Below, in pieces: positions 10,492 through 31,072 of a DNA stretch of 58,343 bases. Position 1 is the stretch's first letter, and every line of letters starts with the position of its first letter. The translations under genes and the position numbers were made by a program. This stretch comes from Saprospiraceae bacterium (GTDB lineage: Bacteria > Bacteroidota > Bacteroidia > Chitinophagales > Saprospiraceae), in contig JAIYAV010000199.1 of the NCBI GenBank assembly GCA_027488855.1, forward strand, positions 1 to 58,343, written 5' to 3'. The notes under the pieces are model-generated. The model worked only from the letters and a program-made list of their open reading frames with translations, was not told the DNA's origin and ran no database searches.

Positions 10492-12741
10492 ATGGAATCC
10501 TTAGTGTACCTACTACCAGGTTTTGGTATTTTGGCTTTGCTGTACATGGCTTATTTATCCTCTTGGGTAACCAAGCAAGATGCTGGTGGAGATAAAATGC
10601 AGGAAATTTCGGCTGCAATTGCCGATGGAGCAATGGCTTTTTTGAAAGCCGAATATAGCCGCTTGGCTATTTTTGCCGTCATTGCCAGTGTATTACTGGT
10701 GATCCAATCCCAAATGGTTGAGAACTCCCATTGGTTGATTTTTGTCGCCTTTATTTTTGGCGCAAGTTTCTCTGCTCTCGCTGGTTTCTTTGGCATGCGC
10801 ATTGCGACCAAAGCCAACGTGCGCACCACTCAGGCCGCTAAAACCAGTTTGGCACAAGCCCTCAAAGTTTCCTTTGCCGGAGGTACGGTAATGGGGATGG
10901 GTGTAGCAGGCTTGGCAGTGTTGGGTTTGAGCGCTTTCTTTATCTTTTTCTACAACTTCTTTATGGGTGGCACCATGGGCGACAGCGTGGATACGGTGAT
11001 CAGCATGGAGCGTGTCCTGGAAGTATTGGCAGGTTTTTCGCTGGGAGCGGAATCCATTGCCTTGTTTGCCCGGGTTGGTGGCGGTATTTATACCAAAGCT
11101 GCTGACGTAGGTGCCGACCTCGTAGGTAAAGTAGAAGCAGGTATCCCTGAAGACGATCCTCGCAACCCGGCCACGATTGCCGACAACGTGGGTGACAACG
11201 TTGGTGACGTAGCAGGTATGGGTGCCGACCTTTTTGGTTCATATGTTGCTACTGTATTGGCAGCGATGGTATTGGGCAACTACCTTATCGGCGACAACCC
11301 CAATGTACTGGCGGACGCATTCGGTGGCATTGGCCCAATTTTGTTGCCGATGTTTATCGCTGGTTTGGGCATTATATTCTCCTTTCTGGGCAGTTTGTTG
11401 GTGCGTGTAGGTGAAGGCAATGCCTCTGCTCAAACCGTACAAAATGCACTCAACCGCGGCAACTGGGGCTCAATCATCCTGACTGGTGTGGTTTGTTACC
11501 CAGTAATCACCTGGATGTTGCCTACCGATTTGAACATCAACTATTTCGGCGAAGGTATCAGATCAGTACCTTCCATCAACGTGTTTTTTGCAGTATTGGT
11601 AGGTCTGGTCGTAGGTGGCTTGATCTCGCTAATCACTGAGTATTATACCGCCATGGGCAAAAAGCCGGTGAATGACATCATTCAGCGTTCTTCCACTGGC
11701 CCAGCTACCAACATCATCGAAGGCTTGGCGCAAGGGATGCTTTCCACTGCAATGCCAGTAATCCTTTTTGCGGTAGCGATTTTTGTTACCTATTCTTTGG
11801 CTGGTTTCTACGGCGTAGCATTGGCTGCTTCCGGTATGATGGCTACTACGGCTATGCAGTTGGCGATCGACGCTTTCGGGCCGATTGCTGACAACGCTGG
11901 TGGTATTGCCGAAATGAGCGAATTGCCTAAAGAAGTACGCGAGCGTACCGATATTCTGGATGCAGTAGGCAACACCACTGCGGCCATCGGTAAAGGTTTT
12001 GCAATTGCTTCAGCGGCTTTGACTGCCTTGGGCTTGTTTGCTGCTTACGTGACCTTCACCAAAATTGACGGAATCAACATCTTCAAAGCGGATGTTCTTG
12101 CCGCCTTGTTTGTCGGTGGCATGATCCCGGTGGTATTCTCTGCGTTTGCAATGCGTGCGGTAGGTCGTGCAGCCATGTCGATGGTGCAGGAAGTACGCCG
12201 CCAGTTCCGCGAAATTCCAGGTATCATGGAAGGAACGGGCAAGCCTGATTATGGCCGTTGTGTAGACATCTCTACCAAGGCTGCCATCCGCGAGATGACC
12301 ATTCCTGGTTTGATCACCATCGTTACTCCGATTGTCGTTGGTTTCTTGCTGGGACCAGAAGCACTAGGTGGCTACATGGCTGGTGTAACCGTATCAGGTG
12401 TGATGTGGGCCATCTTCCAGTCCAACGCAGGTGGTGCCTGGGACAACGCCAAGAAGTCATTTGAAAAAGGTGTGGAAATCGACGGTCAAATGTATTACAA
12501 AGGTTCTGAGCCACACAAAGCTGCCGTTATCGGTGACACAGTGGGTGACCCTTTCAAAGATACTTCTGGCCCATCCATGAACATCCTCATCAAATTGACC
12601 TGTCTGGTTGGTTTGGCCATTGCGCCAATCCTCGGCGAGCAGTACGCTGCCAAGCAGGAGGAAGTTGGCCAAAAACAAGAGAAAAAAGAAATCAAGCTGG
12701 AATCAAAGTTGGAGAAAGACGCTCCAGCGGAGGTGTTCTAG
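10492..12741 (+). CDS. hppA: Membrane-bound ion-pumping pyrophosphatase (K+-dependent type)
   Basis: Integral membrane enzyme of 749 residues, about 16 helices, that couples pyrophosphate hydrolysis to H+ or Na+ export. The substrate-binding block [20 protein letters not shown] with [20 protein letters not shown] is intact, as is the C-terminal [20 protein letters not shown] block. The signature around residue 497 reads GNTTAA. Alanine here marks the K+-dependent subclass, whereas K+-independent pumps have lysine (GNTTKA). H+ versus Na+ transport cannot be settled by eye. After the last helix there is a charged tail of about 30 residues rich in Lys and Glu. A strong terminator follows. Confidence 0.95.
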
Positions 12742-16735: not shown

Positions 16736-18160
16736 ATGATATTTAAGTCTCTGACTAGCCGAGTACTGCTCATTGCATCTCTATTGTTCAGCACCATGGC
16801 AATGTATGGCCAAGGTGCGGCAAAGGGCGATGACAAGGCGGGGAAAACCCTTTTCCAGAACAATTGTGCCTCTTGTCACAACAAGAACATGAAGAGCGAC
16901 CTTACTGGTCCTGCTCTAGGCGGTGTTGAAGAGCGTTGGGCTGCCTACCCACGCACCGATTTGTACAAATGGATTCGCAATTCTCAATCCATGATCAACA
17001 CCCATCCACGGGGCAAAGAACTGTGGGCCAAATGGCAACCAACCGTAATGAACAGCTTCAACGGATTGGGTGATCAGGACATCGAGAACATTCTGGCGTA
17101 TATCCAGTGTATGTACGATGGTTCTTGTGATCCAGCCGCTGCTGCCGCTGCGGGTGGAGCAGTTGCCGGAGGAATCGAAAAGCCGAAGAACAACACCATG
17201 TTGTACATTCTGCTGGCAGGTATCCTGGGCATCTTTGCGGTTGTTCTTGCGCGCATCCTGTCCAACCTCAATTACATGTTGGCGGTAAAAGAAGGCCAAG
17301 TAGCTGAACGCAAAACGCTGAAGCAAATCCTACTCAGCAAAGGTGTCATTGCTTTCGCTTTGTTCGCAGCAGTTGTTTTGGGTGGATACACTACGGTGAA
17401 TCAGGCAATCTCACTGGGGCGCCAACAAGGCTATCAACCCGATCAGCCGATCAAATTTTCGCACACCACCCACGCTGGTCTGCACAAAGTTGATTGTAAT
17501 TACTGCCACGATAGCGCACGGCGGAGCAAACACTCCTCTATTCCTGCAGCCAATACCTGTATGAATTGCCACCGTGCCATCAAGGTAGGTTCTAAATATG
17601 GTACAGCGGAGTTGACCAAGATTTTCGCTTCGATTGGTTACGATCCGAAGTCAGACAAATACATCGAGAATTACGAAAACCTCTCCGAGGACGAGATCAA
17701 GAGTACCTTCACTGCATGGATTGAGGATAATGCAATCCAGGCAGGTAAGTCTCCTGATGCGGCCGTTAAGGAAGGTGGTTTGCAGTGGGATGCCATTAAG
17801 GAGGCATTGACTGATGCAAAAACGGGCGATAAAAAAATTCAAGGTCCAATTGAGTGGGTGCGCATCCACAACTTGCCAGACCATGTATATTTCAACCACG
17901 CACAACACGTTTCAGTAGGTCAGGTAGCCTGCCAAACTTGTCACGGTAAAGTGGAAGAAATGGATGTGTTGCAGCAACATGCGCCACTGTCGATGGGCTG
18001 GTGTATCAACTGCCACCGCCAAACGGAGGTCAAGTTTGCCGACAACGGGTACTACAATAGCTACTACGCGAAATTCCACAAAGAACTTCAGGAAGGTAAG
18101 CGGAAAAAAGTAACCGTTGAAGACATTGGCGGTTTGGAATGCCAAAAATGCCATTACTAA
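16736..18160 (+). CDS. actA: ACIII subunit ActA, multiheme cytochrome c with six CXXCH motifs
   Basis: Membrane-anchored multiheme cytochrome of 474 residues that carries electrons from the ACIII iron-sulfur subunit towards the oxidase. After a signal sequence (1-26), a cytochrome c class I-like domain holds CASCH at 44-48. Two hydrophobic segments follow at about 154-172 and 204-222. The periplasmic multiheme part has CNYCH (254), CMNCH (275), CQTCH (399), CINCH (423) and CQKCH (469, two residues before the end). ActA is usually described as pentaheme; the sixth motif is the N-terminal domain. It is the first gene of the operon, followed by a hairpin cluster. Confidence 0.93.
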   Translation: MIFKSLTSRVLLIASLLFSTMAMYGQGAAKGDDKAGKTLFQNNCASCHNKNMKSDLTGPALGGVEERWAAYPRTDLYKWIRNSQSMINTHPRGKELWAKWQPTVMNSFNGLGDQDIENILAYIQCMYDGSCDPAAAAAAGGAVAGGIEKPKNNTMLYILLAGILGIFAVVLARILSNLNYMLAVKEGQVAERKTLKQILLSKGVIAFALFAAVVLGGYTTVNQAISLGRQQGYQPDQPIKFSHTTHAGLHKVDCNYCHDSARRSKHSSIPAANTCMNCHRAIKVGSKYGTAELTKIFASIGYDPKSDKYIENYENLSEDEIKSTFTAWIEDNAIQAGKSPDAAVKEGGLQWDAIKEALTDAKTGDKKIQGPIEWVRIHNLPDHVYFNHAQHVSVGQVACQTCHGKVEEMDVLQQHAPLSMGWCINCHRQTEVKFADNGYYNSYYAKFHKELQEGKRKKVTVEDIGGLECQKCHY

Positions 18161-18165
18161 CCCAC

Positions 18166-18264
18166 CCCACGGTTTCAACCGTGGGAGGGTATAACCCGGC
18201 TCCACCCCACGGTTTTAACCGTGGGAGGGCATATTCCACCCCCGCCCACGGATTTATTCGTGGG
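18166..18264. repeat. Cluster of three CCCACG hairpins between actA and actB
   Basis: Three 20-nt hairpins lie in tandem: CCCACGGTTTCAACCGTGGG (18166-18185), CCCACGGTTTTAACCGTGGG (18206-18225) and CCCACGGATTTATTCGTGGG (18245-18264). The first two stems are perfect. The same family recurs at 21621 and 31087-31193. Inside an operon, such stems could cause partial termination or act as RNA processing barriers. They look like REP-type repeats. Confidence 0.85.
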
Positions 18265-18320
18265 TGCGAGATATCGCCCGCCCAGCGGGTCTTTGGATAA
18301 CCAGACGCATCTCAACTCAG

Positions 18321-21300
18321 ATGAAAAATCAAAATAAAGAAATCTGGATCGGTACAGATCAAATTGCCAACGATCCGATTTACAACGAGATCACCAATCA
18401 GGAGTTTTACGAGCGGCCATTATCTGAGCAATTGGCTGATGATAAAACAATGGACCTGAACGCCAATCGCCGCGACTTCCTCAAGTACCTTGGCTTCGGC
18501 CTTGGTGCAGCAACCATTGCTGCCAGCTGTGATATTCCAATCAGAAAAGCGATCCCCTACGTCGTCAAACCTGACGAAATAGTACCAGGGGTAGCTACTT
18601 ATTATGCCTCTTCCTTTGTAAACGGAGGTGACTATTGCGCCATTTTGGTGAAGACCCGCGAAGGTCGCCCCATCAAAATAGAAGGCAACAGTCTTTCCAG
18701 TGTTACCAAAGGGGGAACCAGCGCACGGGCTCAGGCCAGTGTGTTGAGTTTGTATGACTCTAACCGTTTCGATGGTCCATACCGCGTCAAAGGTGGTAAG
18801 CTAGATCGGGCGGATGCCAGATTTGGCAAAGGTCCTTCGCTGGCGGAGATCGACAAGGAAATTGCAAAAAAACTGACCAGTGGTAGTCGCATCCGCATTG
18901 TGGCTCCGACCATCCTGAGTCCAATGACCAAGCAGGCGATTGCTGATTTCCAGGCAGCCTACGCCAATACCGAAGTAGTCATCTACGACCCAGCTTCCAG
19001 CTCGGCTCTGTTGCAAGCCAACGAGCAGTGTTTTGGTCAGGCGGTAGTACCTGCTTATAGCTTCGATAAAGCTGAAGTCATTGTTGGTTTTGAGTGTGAC
19101 TTTTTGGGCAGCTGGGTTTCTCCAATTGAATTTGCTACCCAGTACATTCAAAACCGCAAAATCACTGACGTAAATCAAACCAAGATGTCTCGCCACTACC
19201 AAGTGGAAGCACACTTGAGTTTGACCGGCTCCAATGCCGATAACCGGATTTTGGTAAAACCATCTCATCAAGGAGCTGCAGTTGTTGCGTTGCACAACGA
19301 AGTTGCCGCCTTGACTGGTGGAACCAAAGTATCTGGACCATCTCTACCTGCGGAAACCGCAGCGAAGTTCAAAGCTGTTGCAAAAGATCTGGTAGCTGCT
19401 AGCGGGAAAGCCCTGGTTGTTTCTGGTTCTAACAACACTGGCGAACAAATCTTGGTGAACTCCATCAACGCAATGTTGGACTCCTATGGCAATACCATCA
19501 CTTTTGCCAATGCTTCCAACCAACGCCAGGGTCAGGATAAAAATGTTCAAAAACTGGTCAAAGACATGGCTGCTGGCCAAGTCGACGCGGTTTTCTTCTT
19601 CGACGGAGTCAACCCAGCCTACGACCTACCCAATAGTGATAAATTCCGCGATGCCATCGCTAAAGTGAAGCTGAAAATTTCTTTTTCGATTGCACCCAGC
19701 GAAACTGTGCTGCTTTGTGATTATGTAGTACCTACCAATCACTACCTCGAAAGCTGGGGTGATGCGGAACCAAAGCAAGGCCACTACAGCTTGATCCAGC
19801 CTACGATTGCTCCTTTGTTCAAAACTCGTCAGGTTGAAGAGACTTTGTTGACTTGGGCGAAAAGCGACAAGTTGAATAAGGATTCGGAGCAGCCGATGTA
19901 CGATTACCTGGTGGCTTTCTGGGAAGCCAACATCTTCACCAAACAAAGCCGCTTTGCAACCTTCCAAAGCTTCTGGGACAGCACTTTGCACGATGGTATC
20001 TTTGAGGTGCCTTCCGCTGTGGTTCCTGAGTTTGGTTTCGGCGGCGATGTAGCTGCTGCTGCTGCCAAAGTGCGCAAACCTGGCGCTGATGGTTTGGAAC
20101 TGGCTTTCTTTGAAACAGTCAACTTGGGTGATGGCAAATATGCCAACAACCCCTGGTTGCAGGAAATGCCCGATCCAGTTGCCCGTACAGTATGGGGCAA
20201 CAACCTGGCTGTTCCTGTTAAGTATGAAGGTGGCATTCGTTTCAAAGCCCTGAATGACCTCAACCAACGCGAAATGTACGGCTCAGCCGACTTCGTAGAA
20301 GTTGAAGCCAAAGGACAAAAAGTAACCACTAGCGCTGTACGCCAGTTTGGTCAAATGTGGGATACCGTCGGTTTGGCCATCGGTTATGGACGCGAATGCA
20401 CTGGTTACCAAGGCCGCGCCATTGGGGACAAAGTGGGGGTCAATGTTTATCCAATGATGAGCATTGATGCGGACGGCAACACACAGTACTACGCCGTAAG
20501 CGCCAAAGTATCTGAATCAGTCGGAAAAGACAAAGATTTTGCTTGTGTACAATACCACCATGGTATGGGTATGACGGGCAAAGATAAAAATGGCAAACAG
20601 ATCAAAGCCGGCGATGGCAAAGACCTGAACCTGGACGAACACACTTCCATGACTCTTGGTGCTGGTTACCAGGGCGGTATCGTGGATCGTTCGATCATCT
20701 ACAAGAGCAACATCAAAGAATTGCCGGAACTGGCTGAGAAAATCAAGGAGAAACGCGCCGAAGCTCAACACCTCAACGATCAAACCCTCTATCCATTTGA
20801 CAAATATGTAGCCAACAACTACAGCCAGTCACAATGGTGGGCAATGCACGTTGACCTGAGTGCCTGTATCGGTTGTGGTGCTTGCCAGGTAGCTTGTGTG
20901 GCTGAAAACAACGTACCCGTTGTAGGTAAATTTGAAGTATCTCGCCACCACGAAATGAGCTGGTTGCGCATCGATCGTTACTTCTTTGGTGACTACGAAA
21001 CGCCAAACGTGGTTTACCAACCGATGATGTGCCAGCACTGCGACAACGCTCCTTGTGAAAACGTTTGCCCAGTAAACGCTACCAACCACAGTTCCGAAGG
21101 TTTGAACCAAATGTCGTACAACCGTTGTATTGGTACCCGTTACTGTGCCAACAACTGTCCGTATAAAGTACGTCGCTTCAACTGGTTGGATTATACCGCT
21201 GCTGATATTTTCCCCATCAACGAGAACCACATCAACAGTGAAGAACTGCCTTATACTGCTGACAACTTGATGCGTATGGTATTGAACCCAGACGTAACGG

Positions 21301-21590
21301 TACGCTCTCGTGGGGTGATCGAAAAATGTAGTTTCTGCGTACAACGCATCCAGGAAGGTAAACTGACTGCCAAGCGTGAAGGCCGCAAACTGAAGGATAA
21401 CGATATTAAATCTGCATGCCAAACGGCTTGTCCTACTGGTGCCATCGTCTTCGGTGACCGCAATGACAAAACTGCCGAAGTAAGCAAGCGGATGGAGCAT
21501 CCGTTGAACTACCTCGCACTCGAGGAAATCAACGTACAATCTTCAGTAAACTACCAGGCTAAGGTTGTCAACCGGAACGAAGCTGTATAA
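18321..21590 (+). CDS. actB: ACIII subunit ActB, molybdopterin-oxidoreductase-like plus iron-sulfur protein
   Basis: Large periplasmic subunit of 1089 residues. A twin-arginine motif (NRRDFLK, 49-55) precedes a hydrophobic stretch and Cys70 in a lipobox-like ATIAASC, so Tat export and lipid anchoring are likely. Residues about 80-830 resemble a molybdopterin oxidoreductase fold, which in ACIII carries no molybdenum. The C-terminal part is a ferredoxin-like subunit: CIGCGACQVAC from Cys849, CQHCDNAPCENVCP, CIGTRYCANNCP, and CSFC paired with CQTACP (Cys1033), giving ligands for four clusters. ATG at 18321 is chosen; an upstream in-frame GTG at 18264 falls inside a hairpin repeat. Confidence 0.93.
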   Translation: MKNQNKEIWIGTDQIANDPIYNEITNQEFYERPLSEQLADDKTMDLNANRRDFLKYLGFGLGAATIAASCDIPIRKAIPYVVKPDEIVPGVATYYASSFVNGGDYCAILVKTREGRPIKIEGNSLSSVTKGGTSARAQASVLSLYDSNRFDGPYRVKGGKLDRADARFGKGPSLAEIDKEIAKKLTSGSRIRIVAPTILSPMTKQAIADFQAAYANTEVVIYDPASSSALLQANEQCFGQAVVPAYSFDKAEVIVGFECDFLGSWVSPIEFATQYIQNRKITDVNQTKMSRHYQVEAHLSLTGSNADNRILVKPSHQGAAVVALHNEVAALTGGTKVSGPSLPAETAAKFKAVAKDLVAASGKALVVSGSNNTGEQILVNSINAMLDSYGNTITFANASNQRQGQDKNVQKLVKDMAAGQVDAVFFFDGVNPAYDLPNSDKFRDAIAKVKLKISFSIAPSETVLLCDYVVPTNHYLESWGDAEPKQGHYSLIQPTIAPLFKTRQVEETLLTWAKSDKLNKDSEQPMYDYLVAFWEANIFTKQSRFATFQSFWDSTLHDGIFEVPSAVVPEFGFGGDVAAAAAKVRKPGADGLELAFFETVNLGDGKYANNPWLQEMPDPVARTVWGNNLAVPVKYEGGIRFKALNDLNQREMYGSADFVEVEAKGQKVTTSAVRQFGQMWDTVGLAIGYGRECTGYQGRAIGDKVGVNVYPMMSIDADGNTQYYAVSAKVSESVGKDKDFACVQYHHGMGMTGKDKNGKQIKAGDGKDLNLDEHTSMTLGAGYQGGIVDRSIIYKSNIKELPELAEKIKEKRAEAQHLNDQTLYPFDKYVANNYSQSQWWAMHVDLSACIGCGACQVACVAENNVPVVGKFEVSRHHEMSWLRIDRYFFGDYETPNVVYQPMMCQHCDNAPCENVCPVNATNHSSEGLNQMSYNRCIGTRYCANNCPYKVRRFNWLDYTAADIFPINENHINSEELPYTADNLMRMVLNPDVTVRSRGVIEKCSFCVQRIQEGKLTAKREGRKLKDNDIKSACQTACPTGAIVFGDRNDKTAEVSKRMEHPLNYLALEEINVQSSVNYQAKVVNRNEAV

Positions 21591-21620
21591 ACCTACATTA
21601 TTAACCTAGGGCTTTTATAA

Positions 21621-21636
21621 CCACGGTTAGCCGTGG
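21621..21636. repeat. CCACGG hairpin between actB and actC
   Basis: CCACGGTTAGCCGTGG forms a 6-bp stem with a 4-nt loop. It is a shorter relative of the hairpins at 18166-18264 and lies 17 bp before the actC ATG. Confidence 0.75.
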
Positions 21637-21652
21637 CACTAACAATAAAATC

Positions 21653-23083
21653 ATGAGTGGACACATTTCTCCAATACGGGAACCCCTGATTACAGGTGCT
21701 AAAACGTACCACCAAATCACGGAGGACATCTGTGGGCCTACTGAACGTACGCCTTCCGTTGCCTGGATGATTGCCTTCATTCTTGCCGTAACGGGCCTCG
21801 CAGTTTATGTATTTTGTGTAACCTGGACCATTTGGGTCGGGATCGGTTCCTGGAACCTGAACCGGACGATCAACTGGGGTTGGGACATTACCAACTTCGT
21901 TTGGTGGGTCGGTATCGGTCACGCGGGTACTTTGATTTCTGCCATCTTGTTGCTGTTCCGTCAGAAATGGCGGACAGGGGTAAACCGTGCAGCGGAAGCG
22001 ATGACCATCTTCGCGGTAATTTGCGCGGGTCAGTTCCCGCTCATCCACATGGGCCGCCTGTGGCTGGGATTCTTCATCTTCCCTTATCCCAATACCCGCG
22101 GACCACTTTGGGTTAACTTTAACTCTCCGCTGCTTTGGGACGTATTTGCGATCTCTACCTATTTCACGGTTTCTTTGCTGTTCTGGTACACTGGTTTGGT
22201 GCCTGACTTTGCAACGGTACGCGACCGTGCTTCGGGTTTCCGTCGCAAAATGTACGACTTCCTAGCTTTTGGCTGGACAGGTTCTGCCAAGCACTGGCAA
22301 CGTTGGGAAAGTTTGTCGCTGATCCTGGCGGGTTTGTCCACTCCGCTGGTACTCTCAGTACACACCATCGTATCCTTTGACTTTGCCACTTCAGTTATTC
22401 CTGGCTGGCACACCACCATCTTCCCTCCTTACTTCGTAGCGGGTGCGATCTTCTCTGGTTTTGCCATGGTGCAAACCCTGATGATCATCACACGCAAAGT
22501 ATTGAACCTGCAAGATTACATCACGCTAGAGCATATCGACAGTATGAACAAAGTGATCCTGGCAACAGGTAGCATCGTTGGGGTAGCCTACCTCACCGAG
22601 TTGTTCATCTCCTGGTATTCTGGATACATCTATGAGCAATTTGCTTTCTACAACCGTTTGATGGGGCCTTACTTCTGGTCTTACATCGGGATGATGGCTT
22701 GCAACGTAATTTCTCCACAAATCTTTTGGAGCAAAAACCTGCGCAAAAACATCACCGTGACCTTTGCAATGTCCATCTTCATCAACATCGGGATGTGGTT
22801 TGAGCGTTTCGTCATCATTGCCTCTACCTTGGCGCGTGATTATTTACCTTCTTCCTGGAGCTACTATTCAGCTACTTGGGTAGAGGTTGGTCTCTTCGTC
22901 GGTACTTTGGGCTTGTTTTCTACTTGTTTCATGATTTTCACCCGCGTTGCACCGGTAGTAGCCATTGCTGAAATCAAGAGTATCTTGAAGAACGCTGGCG
23001 ACCAATACGTAGGGATGAAAAATGCACTGAAGCATGACCACAAGCACGAGTCAGTGAAAGCAAACGGCGGCGACGCGCACTAA
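21653..23083 (+). CDS. actC: ACIII subunit ActC, NrfD/PsrC-like quinol-binding membrane protein
   Basis: Integral membrane subunit of 476 residues with about ten hydrophobic helices, of the NrfD/PsrC family. It holds the menaquinol oxidation site next to ActB. Typical blocks are WTIWVGIGSWNLNRTINWGW, FVWWVGIGHAGTLISAILLL and PLIHMGRLWLGFFIFPYPNT, the last close to the quinol site in family structures. The C-terminus is a soluble tail with a His-rich end (KHDHKHE, then GDAH). It starts 62 bp after actB and 31 bp before actD. Confidence 0.93.
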   Translation: MSGHISPIREPLITGAKTYHQITEDICGPTERTPSVAWMIAFILAVTGLAVYVFCVTWTIWVGIGSWNLNRTINWGWDITNFVWWVGIGHAGTLISAILLLFRQKWRTGVNRAAEAMTIFAVICAGQFPLIHMGRLWLGFFIFPYPNTRGPLWVNFNSPLLWDVFAISTYFTVSLLFWYTGLVPDFATVRDRASGFRRKMYDFLAFGWTGSAKHWQRWESLSLILAGLSTPLVLSVHTIVSFDFATSVIPGWHTTIFPPYFVAGAIFSGFAMVQTLMIITRKVLNLQDYITLEHIDSMNKVILATGSIVGVAYLTELFISWYSGYIYEQFAFYNRLMGPYFWSYIGMMACNVISPQIFWSKNLRKNITVTFAMSIFINIGMWFERFVIIASTLARDYLPSSWSYYSATWVEVGLFVGTLGLFSTCFMIFTRVAPVVAIAEIKSILKNAGDQYVGMKNALKHDHKHESVKANGGDAH

Positions 23084-23114
23084 TCTAATTTCGAGACAGC
23101 AAAAACGAAGTGCA

Positions 23115-23648
23115 ATGACAAGATCTCCAAATAAAGATGTACTCTTCGGTCTGTATGATGACGAGACCAAGATTCTTAGTGCAGTAAGCGAAGCTCGTGC
23201 TGCACACCTGGACATTTACGATGTGTTTACCCCATTCCCGGTTCACGGCATGGAAGACGCAATGGGTTTCACCGAAAGCCGCCTCCACCAGGCTGGTTTT
23301 GTATACGGCTTGATCGGAACTTTGACCGCCTTCTTGGGTATGACCTGGGTATTTACCAGCGATTGGCCCATCATTTTCGGTGGCAAACCATACTGGTCGG
23401 TTCCTGCGTTCATTCCGGTTACTTTTGAGTTGACGGTACTTTTTGCCGCAATTGGGATGGTGGTTACTTTTTACACCATCTGTGGCATGGGCCCTGGCAT
23501 CATCAACCCTACACTGCACGACCGCATTACCGACGATAAATTCTGTCTGGCCTTTGATGTAACCGATGTATCTGATGACGAAAAAGCCAAGTTCAAGACT
23601 TTTTTGGAAACATCCGGTGCGGAAGAAATTGATCAAAAGCACATTTAA
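23115..23648 (+). CDS. actD: ACIII subunit ActD (DUF3341)
   Basis: Small membrane subunit of 177 residues with an N-terminal soluble domain (GLYDDETKILSAVSEAR, then YDVFTPFPVHGMEDAMG) and two transmembrane helices (about 76-95 and 110-135). This matches DUF3341, the ActD family of ACIII. It has no cofactor motif; its role in the complex is structural as far as known. The gene sits in the conserved act order between actC and actE. Confidence 0.92.
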   Translation: MTRSPNKDVLFGLYDDETKILSAVSEARAAHLDIYDVFTPFPVHGMEDAMGFTESRLHQAGFVYGLIGTLTAFLGMTWVFTSDWPIIFGGKPYWSVPAFIPVTFELTVLFAAIGMVVTFYTICGMGPGIINPTLHDRITDDKFCLAFDVTDVSDDEKAKFKTFLETSGAEEIDQKHI

Positions 23649-23691
23649 ACCCGGACAGCCGGTCAATGTTTGAACCAAGGAAAATCGAGCA

Positions 23692-24555
23692 ATGATGAAA
23701 AACTTAAAATATATTCTTTATTCGGTAGCCGCAGTCAGCCTGCTCTACTCCTGCTCACCAGCAGGAGGCAATTACGCTGGCAAGGAATACATGCCGGATA
23801 TGGCGCACTCAGTTGGATTTGAATCCCAGTCATATGCCAACTATTCACGCAACAACTGGGATAGCGCAAGTGTAATCAACCGCAAATTTTTGTCTGGCCC
23901 ATTGAAACCTGCCGCAGGCACCATCCCTCGTGGATATGCAGGCTTCAGTTTCGCCAGCCCCGCTGCTTATGATTCCATCATGAACATCCTCAGAGGAGGT
24001 AATCAGCTAAATGCCATTGCAGTACCTGTGAATGGCAAAGTGCCCTACCACTATGGTGACACGGAAGAGGAGCGGATTCGCGCCAGCAAAGATATTGTCG
24101 GCAACCCTTTTCCAATTACCGAAGCTGGTTTGGCCAAAGGCAAAGAACTCTACAACATCTACTGCGGTATTTGCCACGGTGAAAAAGGGGACGGCGCCGG
24201 CTACCTGATTCGGGATGCCAATCCTGCCAAAGGTGATCCGGGTGGTGTTTATCCTGCTGCTCCGGCCAACTTTATGCTGGATACTTTCTACATTTCTACC
24301 AATGGACGTTTTTACCATGCCATCATGTACGGCAAAAACGTAATGGGTGGTTATGCTGAAAAATTGAGCTTTGAGGAAAGATGGCAAGTGATTCACCACA
24401 TTCGCTCTTTGCAAGCAACGGCTAAGCCGGGTACAATCTATAGCCCTACGGCGAATACCCTGAATCCAAGTTTTGCTGTACCAGCGGCGCAAGTGAAAAA
24501 AGCTACTCCTTCAAGTTCAGCGCCTTTGGTGCCTGCACCCAAGAGCAGCAAGTAA
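23692..24555 (+). CDS. actE: ACIII subunit ActE, monoheme cytochrome c lipoprotein
   Basis: Periplasmic lipoprotein of 287 residues. The signal peptide ends at LLYSC, with Cys21 as the lipidation site. One heme motif, CGICHGEKGDG, lies at 158-168 within a class I cytochrome domain, and the VMGGYAEKLSFEERW segment near 225 probably supplies the distal methionine. In characterised ACIII-oxidase supercomplexes the ActE heme passes electrons on to the oxidase. The last 40 residues are a Pro/Ala/Ser-rich linker with no fold. Two adjacent ATG codons start the gene. Confidence 0.92.
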   Translation: MMKNLKYILYSVAAVSLLYSCSPAGGNYAGKEYMPDMAHSVGFESQSYANYSRNNWDSASVINRKFLSGPLKPAAGTIPRGYAGFSFASPAAYDSIMNILRGGNQLNAIAVPVNGKVPYHYGDTEEERIRASKDIVGNPFPITEAGLAKGKELYNIYCGICHGEKGDGAGYLIRDANPAKGDPGGVYPAAPANFMLDTFYISTNGRFYHAIMYGKNVMGGYAEKLSFEERWQVIHHIRSLQATAKPGTIYSPTANTLNPSFAVPAAQVKKATPSSSAPLVPAPKSSK

Positions 24556-24599
24556 ATTGATTAACCTTCTTTTGAAGAAAAATAAATAACCGACGAGCA

Positions 24600-25931
24600 A
24601 TGAACCAATTCACCTTCGAAGCCAAGCAAAAGACTTTCCTGCTCGGGTTTATGATACTCGGTGTGTTGTGTCTGGTGTTGTCCTACTTTGTGGACTCCGA
24701 ACCCATGCACGTACGCTTCTGGTCTAATTATCTCCACAATACGGTGTTTTTCACCGGTATTGCAGGTATTTCCATGTTCATTCTAGCTGCCTTCACCACT
24801 GCCTGGGCAGGGTGGTACGTTGGGATGAAACGGGTTTGGGAAGCATTTTCTCTGTTTTTATTGCCAGGTTTATTGTTGTTCATTCCCATCATCATTGGGA
24901 TGTGGGGACACTGGCACCACCTTTACCACTGGGCAGATGCTCACGCTGTGGCTACTGACCCAATTTTGAAAGGCAAATCGGGATTCCTGAATCCCGTTTG
25001 GTATACCTTTGGTACCCTGATCATTGTGGGCACCTGGTATTATTTTGCCTTCAAAAACCGGCAGTTGTCCGTTGCGGAAGATGCAGATGGTCAAGGTATC
25101 GCCGACAACTACTGGCACCACCGCAAAATGCGCACCTACGCAGCGATTTTCCTGCCCATTTTTGGCTTCACGAGTGCAGCCGTAATTTGGCAGTGGGTGA
25201 TGTCGGTAGATGCACACTGGTACTCTACGCTGTTCGCTTGGTATAGCGGCGCAAGTTGGTTCATTTCAGCAATTGCTATTACCATTCTGATGCTGATGTA
25301 CCTGAAAGGCCGTGGTTACCTCGAACACGTTACAGAAAACCACTTGCATGACATTGGTAAATTCTTGTTTGCTATCAGCATTTTTTGGACTTACATGTGG
25401 TTTTCACAGTACATGTTGATTTGGTATGCCAACGTTGGGGAAGAAACCATTTATTTCCGCCACCGTTTGGACAACTATCGGCCTTTGTTCTTTGCCAACC
25501 TGATCATCAATTTTGTGCTGCCATTTTTCATTTTGCTGCGCAACGACAACAAACGCAAATACGGCCCAATGGCCATTGCGGCTATCCTGACTTTGTTTGG
25601 TCACTGGCTAGATTTCTTCTTGATGATCAAACCCGGTACCCGTCTGACCGCAATCGAAGCTGCGGCTGAACATGCTGGTGGACATGGTGCTGAGGCTGCA
25701 GAAGAAGCACACAGATTCCTGAGTTTTGCTGCTGGTTTTTCTATGCCGGGCTTGTTGGAACTGGGTATTTTCGTGGGCTTTCTGGCTGGTTTTGTTTACT
25801 TTGTATTCAAACAACTTGAAAAAGCTGCGCTGGTTCCTGCCAACGATCCATACATTGACGAAACCATGCACCACTCGGTTTGGCCCTATCCAGAAGATGG
25901 GCATGGCACTCACGACGCTGCGCATCACTAA
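24600..25931 (+). CDS. actF: ACIII subunit ActF, second NrfD-like membrane protein
   Basis: Integral membrane subunit of 443 residues with about ten helices, paralogous in fold to ActC. Recognisable blocks include GMWGHWHHLYHWADAHAV near 100, HWYSTLFAWYSGASWFIS near 205 and the conserved MWFSQYMLIWYANVGEET near 265. It pairs with ActC in ACIII and is usually called quinol:cytochrome c oxidoreductase subunit 2. A loop with HAGGHGAEAAEEAHR and a His-rich C-terminus (GHGTHDAAHH) are present. It is the last act gene before coxB. Confidence 0.92.
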   Translation: MNQFTFEAKQKTFLLGFMILGVLCLVLSYFVDSEPMHVRFWSNYLHNTVFFTGIAGISMFILAAFTTAWAGWYVGMKRVWEAFSLFLLPGLLLFIPIIIGMWGHWHHLYHWADAHAVATDPILKGKSGFLNPVWYTFGTLIIVGTWYYFAFKNRQLSVAEDADGQGIADNYWHHRKMRTYAAIFLPIFGFTSAAVIWQWVMSVDAHWYSTLFAWYSGASWFISAIAITILMLMYLKGRGYLEHVTENHLHDIGKFLFAISIFWTYMWFSQYMLIWYANVGEETIYFRHRLDNYRPLFFANLIINFVLPFFILLRNDNKRKYGPMAIAAILTLFGHWLDFFLMIKPGTRLTAIEAAAEHAGGHGAEAAEEAHRFLSFAAGFSMPGLLELGIFVGFLAGFVYFVFKQLEKAALVPANDPYIDETMHHSVWPYPEDGHGTHDAAHH

Positions 25932-26029: not shown

Positions 26030-27517
26030 ATGACTGCTTTGCTCGTATTCTTAAGTCTCGTCCTGATCGTTGTGATTGCCATTCAAATTGGCAAGGTAAC
26101 CGAATTGGCTGCCAAAATTCGCGGTGAGGAAGAAATGCAGGAGATTGTCAATGGTAGGCAAGGGCTCTACATGATCATTTTTATGGTCGCTTTTTTGGTG
26201 CTTACTGCCTACACTGGCGCAGTGTACAAAAACTATTACCTGGGTTTCGGCCCCATGCAGGCAGCATCTGCCCACGGGGGCAAGATCGACGCCATGTTCA
26301 ACGTAACTCTGGTGATCTGTGGAATTGTATTTGTGCTCACTCAAATCCTGCTGTTTTATTACGCTTGGAGATACTCTGGCCGTCGGAACGGGAAAGCCAA
26401 ATTCATCTCTCATGACAATAAGTTGGAGGCGGTCTGGACCATCATTCCGGCTATAGTCATGGCTTTCCTGGTGATTCGTGGTTTGGATGCTTGGAATGAA
26501 ATCATGGCCGACATCCAGCCTGGTGAGGACTACATGGAGATTGAAGCAACGGGTTTCCAATTCGGTTGGGCCTTGCGTTACCCTGGACCAGATGGAGTGT
26601 TGGGGCCTAAAAACTACAAACTCATTTCGGGTGCAAACCCTTTGGGCCAAGACTGGACCGATGAGCGTAACGTAGACGATTTCCATGCCGATGAATTGGT
26701 ACTGCCCAAGGGCAAAAAAATCCGGGTGCGCATCACTTCCAAGGACGTTTTGCACAACTTCTACTTGCCTCATTTCCGGGTAAAAATGGACGCCATTCCT
26801 GGTATTCCTACCTACTTCGTGTTTGAGCCGCAAAAAACCAATGAGGAATTCCGCGAACAATTGCGCAATTATCCTGAATACCAAGTGCCCTCTGATCCAA
26901 AAGATCCAAACTCCAAGCCGAAATGGGAGGTGTTTGACTACGAACTGGCTTGTGCAGAATTGTGTGGCAATAGCCACTTTGCCATGCGCAAAACAGTCAG
27001 AATCGTGGAGCCAGAAGCATATGAGATGTGGGCGATGCAGCAAAAGTCCTACTACCTGAGCAACATCCGCTTCAAGGACGAAGACCCGAATAAGGACAAA
27101 CTCTTCTCCTCTGAAATTGAGGCACGCAAGGAAGAATTCATCGAAGCCTTGGATACTGCTTTGACTACTTCGAAAAAGACAGTACAATTCAGCTATGTAA
27201 CTTTTGCAACTGGTTCAGAAAAACTGACTGGGGTATCTCGTTACGAACTGGACAACCTGGCTGCGGCCATGAAAGAAAAATCTGGCTTGAAAGTGCAACT
27301 AGCTGGCTATACAGACGATACTGGCGAAGATGCCCAAAACCTAGCTTTGTCGCAAAAACGTGCAGATGCAGTGTTGAAATACCTGCAAAGCAAAGGTGTC
27401 GCAGCTAGTCGGCTGAGTGCTAAAGGTTTTGGTGAGGCTCAACCAGTCGTCGCAAACGATAGTGACGAAAATCGCGCCAAGAACCGCCGTACGGAGTTCC
27501 GTATCGTGGGGCAATAA
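26030..27517 (+). CDS. coxB: Cytochrome c oxidase subunit II fused to an OmpA-type peptidoglycan-binding domain
   Basis: CuA electron-entry subunit of the oxidase, 495 residues, much longer than a plain CoxB. Two extra hydrophobic segments (about 3-20 and 46-65) precede the classical helices at 88-112 and 135-153 (EAVWTIIP). The cupredoxin domain carries all CuA ligands: His242, then CAELCGNSHFAM with Cys308, Cys312, His316 and Met319. After a charged linker (about 345-380), residues 385-495 form an OmpA C-terminal-like domain: FATGSEKLTG, LAGYTDDTGEDAQNLALSQK, KGFGEAQPVV and NRRTEF. This would face the periplasm and bind peptidoglycan. The frame is continuous, with no sign of an assembly error. 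Confidence 0.93.
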   Translation: MTALLVFLSLVLIVVIAIQIGKVTELAAKIRGEEEMQEIVNGRQGLYMIIFMVAFLVLTAYTGAVYKNYYLGFGPMQAASAHGGKIDAMFNVTLVICGIVFVLTQILLFYYAWRYSGRRNGKAKFISHDNKLEAVWTIIPAIVMAFLVIRGLDAWNEIMADIQPGEDYMEIEATGFQFGWALRYPGPDGVLGPKNYKLISGANPLGQDWTDERNVDDFHADELVLPKGKKIRVRITSKDVLHNFYLPHFRVKMDAIPGIPTYFVFEPQKTNEEFREQLRNYPEYQVPSDPKDPNSKPKWEVFDYELACAELCGNSHFAMRKTVRIVEPEAYEMWAMQQKSYYLSNIRFKDEDPNKDKLFSSEIEARKEEFIEALDTALTTSKKTVQFSYVTFATGSEKLTGVSRYELDNLAAAMKEKSGLKVQLAGYTDDTGEDAQNLALSQKRADAVLKYLQSKGVAASRLSAKGFGEAQPVVANDSDENRAKNRRTEFRIVGQ

Positions 27518-27617: not shown

Positions 27618-29474
27618 ATGGCTCACGTAGCAAACCATCCAATGACGCAAGAAGAAGAGCTGATAGAAAAGCTGGGTTATGATGATCATTTCCACGATCA
27701 TCATGAAGGCGACCGTTATCAGTCCAACTTCATCAATACTTATGTATTCAGCATGGACCACAAAATCATCGCCAAACAATTCCTCATTACGGGGATGATT
27801 TGGGCTTTGATTGGCGCGGGCATGTCCTTGATTTTCCGTTTGCAATTGGGCTTTCCTGAAGAAAGTATGGCCTGGTTGAAGCCCCTGCTGGGTAAATGGA
27901 TCATCATCAACGCGGAGACCGGAATGGGTACGCTTTCGCAAGATTTTTACTATGCGTTGGTGACCATGCACGGAACCATCCTGGTGTTTTTTGTACTGAC
28001 CGCTGGTTTGAGTGGTACGTTTAGTAACTTACTCATTCCATTGCAGCTGGGGGCACGAGACATGGCTTCGCCATTTCTAAACATGCTTTCGTACTGGTTC
28101 TTCTTTATGTCCGGTATGATCATGATGTTCTCTCTGTTTGTAAGTACAGGCCCATTCTCTGGGGGATGGACCGCTTACCCACCTTTGAGTGCATTGCCAC
28201 AAGCCTCGTCTGGCTCTGGTGCTGGTATGACCCTGTGGTTGTTGAGTCTGGTCTTCTTCGTAGTATCTGTACTACTCGGTGGGATCAACTACATCACAAC
28301 TGTACTCAACCTGCGCACCAAAGGAATGACCATGTGGCGGATGCCACTGACCATTTGGGCCTTCTTCGTGACGGCGATCATTGGTCTGTTGTCTTTCCCG
28401 GTATTGGTTTCCGGTTTCTTGTTGCTGATGTTTGACCGTGGTATGGGCACTAGCTTTTACCTGAGCGAAATTTACGTCGGCGGCCAAGCCCTAGATCACG
28501 TAGGTGGTAGCCCAATTTTGTACCAGCACTTGTTCTGGTTCTTGGGACACCCAGAAGTATACATCATCATTTTGCCAGCGATGGGTTTGGTTTCAGAAGT
28601 ACTTTCGGTACATGCACGCAAACCAATCTTTGGCTATAAAGCAATGGTATTGTCAATTTTGGCCATTGCGTTTCTATCCTTTATCGTTTGGGCACACCAC
28701 ATGTTTATGTCGGGGGTAAACCCATTTATCTCCAACTTCTTCGTGGTGTTCACCCTGATCATTGCGGTTCCTTCGGCGGTAAAGGTGTTCAACTGGATTT
28801 CTACGATCTACGCCAGTAATTTCCGCTTCACGGCGGCCAGTATGTTTGCGATCGGGTTCGTTTCGATGTTCATTTCGGGTGGTTTGACGGGGATATTCCT
28901 GGGCAACTCTGCCATTGACATCCAACAGCACGATACCTATTTCGTAGTTGCGCACTTCCACATTGTAATGGGGGTTGCTGCTTTCTTCGGGATGTTTGCG
29001 GGAATCTACAACTGGTTCCCCAAGATGTACGGTCGATTCATGAACGAAACCTTGGGTAAAATCCACTTCTGGGGTACGATGATTGGTGCTTATGCCATCT
29101 TTTGGCCAATGCACTACATCGGTATGGCCGGGGTACCTCGGCGCTACTATCGTTTTGATACTTTTGCTTCGTTCTCGCATTTTGATGACCTGAACAAGTT
29201 CATTACGATTGCAGCCATTGCTACTTTTGCTTTCCAGGTTTTGTTTGTCGTCAACTTCTTCTACAGCATTTGGAAGGGCAAAAAGATGACCACATTAAAT
29301 CCCTGGGGCGCTTCTACGCTGGAGTGGACTACTGGTATCAAGCCAGGTCACGGCAACTGGGCGGGCAAAATTCCTTCTGTACACCGTTGGCCATATGACT
29401 ATGGCAAAGATGGTAAGGAATTCATCTCTCAGATTACGCCGATGGAAGAGGGTGAAACACCAGGCGAACATTGA
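27618..29474 (+). CDS. coxA: Cytochrome c oxidase subunit I
   Basis: Catalytic heme-copper subunit of 618 residues with 12 or more helices, reducing oxygen to water and pumping protons. The CuB/active-site motif GHPEVYI gives His311, Glu313 and Tyr315, and the other CuB ligands are His360-His361 in WAHHMF. The heme-ligand block HDTYFVVAHFHIVMG lies near 436-450. The GHPEV glutamate marks an A1-type oxidase. The cytoplasmic N-terminus has an unusual DDHFHDHHEGD stretch at about 22-32. It follows coxB by 100 bp; a small TTGAACC/GGTTCAA hairpin lies in that gap. Confidence 0.96.
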   Translation: MAHVANHPMTQEEELIEKLGYDDHFHDHHEGDRYQSNFINTYVFSMDHKIIAKQFLITGMIWALIGAGMSLIFRLQLGFPEESMAWLKPLLGKWIIINAETGMGTLSQDFYYALVTMHGTILVFFVLTAGLSGTFSNLLIPLQLGARDMASPFLNMLSYWFFFMSGMIMMFSLFVSTGPFSGGWTAYPPLSALPQASSGSGAGMTLWLLSLVFFVVSVLLGGINYITTVLNLRTKGMTMWRMPLTIWAFFVTAIIGLLSFPVLVSGFLLLMFDRGMGTSFYLSEIYVGGQALDHVGGSPILYQHLFWFLGHPEVYIIILPAMGLVSEVLSVHARKPIFGYKAMVLSILAIAFLSFIVWAHHMFMSGVNPFISNFFVVFTLIIAVPSAVKVFNWISTIYASNFRFTAASMFAIGFVSMFISGGLTGIFLGNSAIDIQQHDTYFVVAHFHIVMGVAAFFGMFAGIYNWFPKMYGRFMNETLGKIHFWGTMIGAYAIFWPMHYIGMAGVPRRYYRFDTFASFSHFDDLNKFITIAAIATFAFQVLFVVNFFYSIWKGKKMTTLNPWGASTLEWTTGIKPGHGNWAGKIPSVHRWPYDYGKDGKEFISQITPMEEGETPGEH

Positions 29475-29579
29475 TGTAGATTGGACAACAGCTGATGAGC
29501 TGTTTGAGGGAAAAATAGATCATTTTCAATAGGAGAGGAGGACTTGACTCATTCCAGTTCTCCTCCCCAATACTTCTTG

Positions 29580-30482
29580 ATGACTGTGGCGGTAAAAACA
29601 GCAGTGTACAAACCTTTGGCCGCTTTTTGGCAAAAGGTGGAAGACTTCAAATTACTGGTGAAATTGCGTTTGACCCTCACCGTGGTGTTTTCTTCGGTGA
29701 TGGCCTACTTGATTGCGGTACCTGGGCCCATTTCGGGATTGAGTATTGCAATCCTTGCGGTGGGCGGTTTTTTGGTCACAGCAGCAGCGAATGTACTCAA
29801 TCAGGTGCTGGAAAAGGACTATGACCGCTTGATGAAACGTACGGCCAATCGCCCATTGGCAACTGGACGTATGAAAGTGGCCGACGCTGTGCTTTGGGCA
29901 GGATTAATGAGTATGTTGGGCATTACTGCTTTAGCTTTGTTCAATCCTTGGACTGCCTTTTTTGGCACCCTTGCACTGGTTTCTTATGCTTTTTTATATA
30001 CCCCGCTGAAAAGAATTTCCCCCATTGCAGTTGCAGTAGGAGCAGTTCCTGGAGCCTTGCCAACCCTGATTGGTGCGGCGGCGGCAGAAGGGTACATTTC
30101 AGCATTGGGACTGACTTTATTTACCATTCAGTTCTTCTGGCAGTTTCCCCACTTTTGGTCGATTGCCTGGTTGGGACGTGAAGATTACGAGCAGGCTGGT
30201 TACAAATTGTTGCCTGGCCCTGAAGGACAGAAAGAGCAATACACTGCATTACAATCCTTTTTGTACGCGTTGGTACTCATTCCGGTAGGTTTCCTACCCA
30301 TGAGCCTGGGTGTTGCTGGTTGGATCGCGACCACTTGTATTGTGGTATCAAGCGTCTTTTTTGCCTATTTGGGCTGGCGTTTGTATCGGAATAACGATCG
30401 CAAATCGGCGTTGCACTTGATGTTTTTCTCTTTTGTGTACATTCCGCTTGTTTTGGTTGTGTTATTACTAGATCAACTTTAA
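29580..30482 (+). CDS. ctaB: Protoheme IX farnesyltransferase (heme O synthase)
   Basis: UbiA-superfamily membrane prenyltransferase of 300 residues that makes heme O, the precursor of heme A for CoxA. The prenyl-diphosphate site NVLNQVLEKDYDRLMKRTAN followed by RPLATGRM is intact, and the second Asp-rich region is WSIAWLGREDYEQAGYKLLP. ATG at 29580 is preferred on homology length. An in-frame TTG at 29544, 8 nt after AGGAG, would add 12 residues and is possible. Heme A synthase (ctaA) is not in the window. Confidence 0.92.
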   Translation: MTVAVKTAVYKPLAAFWQKVEDFKLLVKLRLTLTVVFSSVMAYLIAVPGPISGLSIAILAVGGFLVTAAANVLNQVLEKDYDRLMKRTANRPLATGRMKVADAVLWAGLMSMLGITALALFNPWTAFFGTLALVSYAFLYTPLKRISPIAVAVGAVPGALPTLIGAAAAEGYISALGLTLFTIQFFWQFPHFWSIAWLGREDYEQAGYKLLPGPEGQKEQYTALQSFLYALVLIPVGFLPMSLGVAGWIATTCIVVSSVFFAYLGWRLYRNNDRKSALHLMFFSFVYIPLVLVVLLLDQL

Positions 30483-30493
30483 TCTGGAAAACC

Positions 30494-31072
30494 ATGGAAG
30501 GAACCTTCCCCAATGCTTACGGTCGGAATAGAATACATCCTCAAACTTTCGCCTTGCTGGTTGCTTGTGCGAGTATCATGATGATGTTTGCAGCCTGGAC
30601 GAGTGCCTTTATGGTACGCCAAGCTGCTGGGAATTGGCTGGAATTCAGCCTACCCCAAGTATTTACCCTGAGCACGGTTTTGATCTTGCTGAGTAGTTTC
30701 ACCTTGCATGTATCGTATCGTGCGTTTTTGAAAGGCAATGAAAAAGTGTACCAATATGGTTTGGTTGTAAGCCTGGTACTGGGGCTGTCTTTTTTGTACA
30801 CTCAATACCAAGGCTGGTTGGCACTCTCCGCAATCGGAGTAGAACTGACTACCAATCCTTCGGGGTCTTTCGTCTATGTGTTTTCGTACGTGCACGCTGC
30901 GCACGTAGTTGGAGGCTTGGCCATCCTGCTACTGAGTACCCTGCACGCATTTTCCCTGGGCTTAAAAGTAACGCCCAAGCGAAAACATCGCTTCGAATTG
31001 AGTATGATCTACTGGCATTTTGTAGATTTGCTCTGGGTTTACATCTTTTTCTTTTTGATGACACAGATGTAG
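30494..31072 (+). CDS. Heme-copper oxidase subunit III, short form
   Basis: Membrane protein of 192 residues with five helices, of the CoxC/COX3 family. It starts 11 bp after ctaB. The characteristic blocks are SYVHAAHVVGGLAILLLS near 135-152 and IYWHFVDLLWVYIFFFL near the C-terminus. It is the first of two subunit III genes in the operon, an arrangement common in Bacteroidota. Which of the two, or whether both, enters the mature oxidase is not clear from sequence. Confidence 0.9.
   Translation: MEGTFPNAYGRNRIHPQTFALLVACASIMMMFAAWTSAFMVRQAAGNWLEFSLPQVFTLSTVLILLSSFTLHVSYRAFLKGNEKVYQYGLVVSLVLGLSFLYTQYQGWLALSAIGVELTTNPSGSFVYVFSYVHAAHVVGGLAILLLSTLHAFSLGLKVTPKRKHRFELSMIYWHFVDLLWVYIFFFLMTQM

Follow-up and report, generated by a model that had tools for sequence, protein, structure and literature searches.

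Are the respiratory complexes of bacteria free to diffuse, or do they hold a fixed position? A locus from a Saprospiraceae bacterium bears on this open question: why does subunit II of its cytochrome oxidase (CoxB) end in an OmpA-type domain, and would that domain hold the oxidase to the cell wall? With this domain, a candidate anchor occurs naturally and is encoded as part of the oxidase. The gene lies in a stretch of 58,343 nucleotides (contig JAIYAV010000199.1), which as a whole is referred to here as the window. Its relevant features are as follows:

16736..25931, plus strand: actA-B-C-D-E-F, alternative complex III (ACIII) genes (Pfam for actA–E)
26030..27517, plus strand: coxB-ompA fusion gene, 495 aa (uninterrupted translation, Pfam)
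26030..26506, plus strand: membrane part of CoxB, residues 1–159 (Pfam COX2_TM 76–149, AlphaFold2 helices)
26537..27064, plus strand: CuA domain, residues 170–345 (His242, Cys308, Cys312, His316, Met319)
27065..27178, plus strand: linker, residues 346–383 (a lone helix, 360–379, in the model)
27179..27514, plus strand: OmpA domain, residues 384–495 (Pfam 391–486)
27618..29474, plus strand: coxA, oxidase subunit I (Pfam)
29544..30482, plus strand: UbiA-family gene (Pfam), which we take to be probably ctaB
30494..31072, plus strand: COX3-family gene, 192 aa (Pfam)

The product of the fusion gene is a CoxB of the aa3 type in which no CuA ligand is missing, followed by a linker and a complete OmpA domain. 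As the sequence-only reading had proposed, positions 26030–27517 stay open as one frame over 495 aa, and the five CuA ligands stand where they had been placed and do not vary across alignment A1 (19 rows). The signatures TDDTG, SQKRA and NRRTEF were all found in the tail, and the domain search that this reading called for matched it to OmpA (PF00691) at residues 391–486 (E 4.4e-23; 81.9 bits against a cut-off of 27.2), over the whole Pfam profile (1–98 of 98). The preceding parts matched COX2_TM at residues 76–149 (1.5e-10; 41.6 bits, cut-off 22.8) and COX2 at residues 170–259 (1.7e-10; 41.3 bits, cut-off 22), and the cut-off of the NCBI CoxB equivalog TIGR02866 was not reached (136.9 bits, cut-off 147.7). 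By genome-wide Pfam search, coxB-ompA is the sole PF00116 match of a genome that contains 35 OmpA matches; in the window, no frame of at least 60 aa other than CoxB scores E < 1e-3 with the CoxB-derived OmpA profile. A scan of ten further OmpA frames from this genome showed extra domains of repeat and adhesion type (PD40, TSP_3, TPR, SprB and similar) and no membrane energy enzyme. A chance OmpA-like stretch was ruled out by the E-value, the whole-profile coverage and the PDB relatives. An assembly join particular to the source record was likewise ruled out, because OmpA is present on CoxB in 17 of the 19 loci of named records (52–99% identity), the two exceptions being Saprospira grandis.

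AlphaFold2, run on A1, gave a model of moderate confidence (mean pLDDT 74, pTM 0.61), with predicted membrane helices at residues 2–31, 34–65, 81–114 and 130–159, a CuA domain rich in strands, and an OmpA part of strands and helices from 384 to 494. The model leaves the relative placement of the domains unfixed. The CuA and TD motifs are spaced 110–116 aa apart in 55 fused rows of the family, near-copies counted.

The ACIII-aa3 gene context claimed for the locus was likewise found, with act and cox genes together: actABCDEF lies upstream of coxB, actF being called by a PDB match (6btm_F, E 6e-62), and coxA and the UbiA- and COX3-family genes lie downstream. This order is constant in the 39 loci compared, fused and unfused, within the reach of each locus. 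Near the act/cox genes of unfused relatives (40 sources), the CoxB-derived profile found no separate OmpA gene at E < 1e-3. By analogy with Flavobacterium johnsoniae and Rhodothermus marinus, ACIII and the aa3 oxidase would be physically associated here as well.

Fused CoxB is usual in one family and occurs sporadically in four others of the order. In a phylum sample, full-length matches occurred in 6 of 395 genomes, all six from the window's own, Saprospiraceae-like family (f1). In a class sample, 139 of 395 genomes matched at 1e-60, and none of the listed matches outside f1 extended into the OmpA part in an open frame; OmpA was also absent from 17 CoxB frames taken from outside the order. 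The order sample comprised 298 genomes, counted by hand (87 f1, 211 others). CoxB was present in 85 of the 87 f1 genomes and, by coverage, fused in 72 of these 85; the rest were two with a degenerate domain, ten unfused, whose tails were all read, and one split over contigs. The CoxB of G675 proved unfused on inspection of its frame. Among the fused relatives is a named isolate, Membranihabitans marinus (L051). As for the 211 order-mates, 18 had no match at 1e-40, 35 f2 genomes stood outside the count, and frame lengths were obtained for 158, of which seven from four families were fused (G808, G819 and G850 of f58; G833 and G927 of f62; G804 of f73; G882 of f72); the CoxB of G816 and that of G878 are truncated. 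Searches within single families found 2 of 26 CoxB fused in f62 (30 genomes) and 3 of 5 in f58 (6 genomes). Fusion counts from query coverage alone are too low: coverage ended early, at 351 in G804, at 347 in G882 and, for the pyrophosphatase described below, at 716 in G837, all of which are fused, and frames were therefore inspected. Other extensions of CoxB were also seen. Unfused CoxB of the family may bear a long His/Glu-rich tail (L098) or long charged tails (L112–L114, L056), and in other families of the class (L203, L205–L213) a single CxxCH lies in an N-terminal stretch that appears to be a cytochrome c joined to the front of CoxB.

According to PMC7192894, Porphyromonas gingivalis PorE grips the diaminopimelate (DAP) of the stem peptide through its Asp576, Asn584 and Arg591 side chains, and the alignment equivalents of these residues in CoxB show the same spacing of 8 and 15 residues:

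27314..27316, plus strand: Asp429, equivalent to PorE Asp576 (alignment)
27338..27340, plus strand: Asn437, equivalent to PorE Asn584 (alignment)
27359..27361, plus strand: Arg444, equivalent to PorE Arg591 (alignment)

The conserved Asp/Arg pair noted in the sequence-only reading was thus located by alignment as D429 and R444, and its conservation in relatives was confirmed. An OmpA profile picked out 56 of 118 distinct CoxB tails of at least 20 aa (E < 1e-3); all three residues are present in 55 of the 56, a count biased toward such rows because the profile was built from motif-selected ones. The lone exception is L135, whose sister L134 narrowly missed the threshold (E 0.003); both belong to genus g216, and their C-terminal stretch, though similar in length, has none of TDxxG, RA and NRR. 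A Pfam scan of the L135 CoxB did not report OmpA. A domain without the wall-binding motifs provides a natural control.

The OmpA part is, judging by substitution ratios, under purifying selection: against L040, L060 and L041, its dN/dS was 0.16, 0.03 and 0.09, compared with 0.09, 0.05 and 0.08 for the core, with dS > 2 (saturated) in the L060 and L041 pairs. Its history is one of repeated change. Accounting for the fused and unfused states on the core tree (114 rows) takes 16–18 changes, at least 10 of them forced by starred branches. Two f58 genomes have a CoxB of 405 aa, and the DNA flanking the stop still aligns with the end of the lost domain, which is a decayed relic. On a domain tree of 78 rows, in which many forks are open because the columns are few, 23 of 24 f1 domains form one group (86/83), the f1 domain of L010 groups with a paralog, the f58 domains are separate, and the f62 domains are nested with a genomic paralog (100/98).

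That f62 paralog is a frame of 902 aa with H_PPase at residues 13–707 and OmpA at 796–890, i.e., a membrane pyrophosphatase with an OmpA tail. Among the order-sample matches listed, such frames occur in at least four genomes of four families:

L243:1812-4508, minus strand: pyrophosphatase-OmpA (f62, G833)
L246:1501-4254, minus strand: pyrophosphatase-OmpA (f58, G808)
L271:1474-4269, plus strand: pyrophosphatase-OmpA (f75, G832)
L294, minus strand: pyrophosphatase-OmpA, 957-aa frame (f72, G837)

G833 and G808 have OmpA on both oxidase and pyrophosphatase; the CoxB of G832 is unfused, and that of G837 is a 354-aa frame. The window's own membrane pyrophosphatase (10492–12741) has a short charged C-terminal tail without OmpA. 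A different tail, rich in Cys, Lys and Glu, was seen on the pyrophosphatase of L296 (G871). The C-terminus of membrane pyrophosphatases lies on the periplasmic side, and hence both carriers can present OmpA to the wall. These enzymes have 16 helices according to PMC5150537, and we found no report of a pyrophosphatase with such a domain in the open-licence literature.

The two kinds of carrier meet in the trees. In a 40-row tree, from which the G837 pyrophosphatase domain was left out, four CoxB domains of f62, f72 and f73 and three pyrophosphatase domains form one group (100/100). The four corresponding CoxB cores each group with members of their own family, those of L121, L122 and L236 next to unfused ones and that of L218 next to one cut and two unfused members. 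In approximately unbiased (AU) tests, whose hypotheses were chosen post hoc from trees already viewed, a single clade of every CoxB OmpA domain was rejected (p-AU 0.011; 3.9e-61 in a smaller set), as was a single clade of the f62, f72 and f73 cores. A single ancient CoxB-OmpA fusion is ruled out by the domain trees, and the passage of one fused coxB among f62, f72 and f73 is ruled out for the cores. Taken together, the domain and core trees suggest that CoxB captured OmpA modules independently in several lineages, and they indicate several independent captures along with many losses. In some lineages the source was possibly exchange with the pyrophosphatase gene, in either direction.

On this evidence, the OmpA domain of CoxB is probably a noncovalent peptidoglycan anchor on a periplasmic tail, useful but dispensable. 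The domain would reach the wall and bind the DAP stem peptide, and a domain so bound would act as a flexible leash from the wall to the oxidase, and to an ACIII supercomplex should one form here, limiting lateral diffusion. The Pfam OmpA match, the DAP triad, the near-constant spacing, purifying selection, fusion in 72 of 85 family members, repeated capture and the pyrophosphatase parallel all speak for such a tether. The many losses, the f58 relic and the g216 domain without the motif argue against an essential anchor, and the frequent loss and the g216 domain are reasons for caution about the tether itself. The oxidase would then be tethered, and its tether may position it. Another possibility is that the domain does bind peptidoglycan but is of use because it fastens the inner membrane to the wall: abundant enzymes that face the periplasm would serve as posts, and the holding of the oxidase would be a by-product. 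Related domains are borne by CoxB and by the unrelated H_PPase, so that the anchor may count for more than the enzyme that bears it, and the 35 OmpA matches of the genome fit this use; we nevertheless consider it unlikely, since in this window the oxidase carries the fusion and the pyrophosphatase does not, and none of the ten other scanned OmpA frames is a membrane energy enzyme.

Less probable still is a docking role, in which the OmpA fold would not bind the wall and would serve as a protein contact or cap in ACIII-aa3, or as a contact with an outer-membrane partner. The nearly constant linker length and the g216 domain, of similar length but free of TDxxG, RA and NRR, would favour it; against it stand the different ancestries of the captured domains and a DAP triad kept in 55 of 56 tails, which docking alone does not demand. 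That the fused domain is a neutral passenger without benefit seems very improbable: frequent loss and sporadic occurrence outside the family would agree with this, but dN/dS of 0.03–0.16, conservation of the triad, fusion of 72 of 85 family CoxB and repeated capture would not. Returning to the wall anchor, a fusion that arose several times and was often lost suggests that some bacteria may tether energy machinery to the wall. More tentatively, and with slightly less than even confidence, we propose that wall-tethering is a recurrent solution for energy-converting inner-membrane enzymes, in which OmpA was captured by CoxB and pyrophosphatase, with some modules in common and a parallel in photosystem I PsaB, and by which supercomplexes would be fixed. 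Close unfused relatives, the decayed relic and a genus with a motif-less domain are ready controls.

The locus can be compared with several known systems. The ACIII-aa3 of F. johnsoniae and the ACIII-caa3 of R. marinus have the act and cox set in common with the window, and the portions available of their descriptions make no mention of an OmpA domain on subunit II (PMC8552683, PMC5928083, PMC8361435). The C-terminal part of caa3 subunit II is a cytochrome c domain; the CoxB of the window ends in OmpA and has no CxxCH. The ActA of F. johnsoniae has an extra cytochrome c domain, which apparently substitutes for that of subunit II in caa3 (PMC5928083); the ActA of the window likewise has six CxxCH motifs, so that the C-terminal slot of the caa3 cytochrome c is occupied here by OmpA. 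PorE, which shares the DAP-site spacing, is a periplasmic lipoprotein of the type IX secretion machinery that associates with the outer membrane, whereas CoxB is an inner-membrane respiratory subunit (PMC7192894). Sequence searches also gave matches to PomB and type VI proteins. MotB/PomB and the long form of TssL sit in the inner membrane and direct a periplasmic OmpA domain at the wall, but they are stator and secretion parts, whereas CoxB is a redox enzyme. In the open-licence literature, we found no described oxidase with an OmpA-type tail. A PDB sequence search retrieved photosystem I PsaB (7f4v_aB), presumably of Gloeobacter violaceus, an energy-complex core subunit with an OmpA-like C-terminus at 786–864 (E 8e-13). 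Its paper models PsaB 3–727, and the words 'peptidoglycan' and 'OmpA' are absent from its text (PMC9000952). Although it belongs to a photosystem of another phylum, unlike CoxB, this PsaB chain with its OmpA-like C-terminus is the closest precedent that we have met. The hypothesis of wall-tied energy enzymes can now be tested directly.
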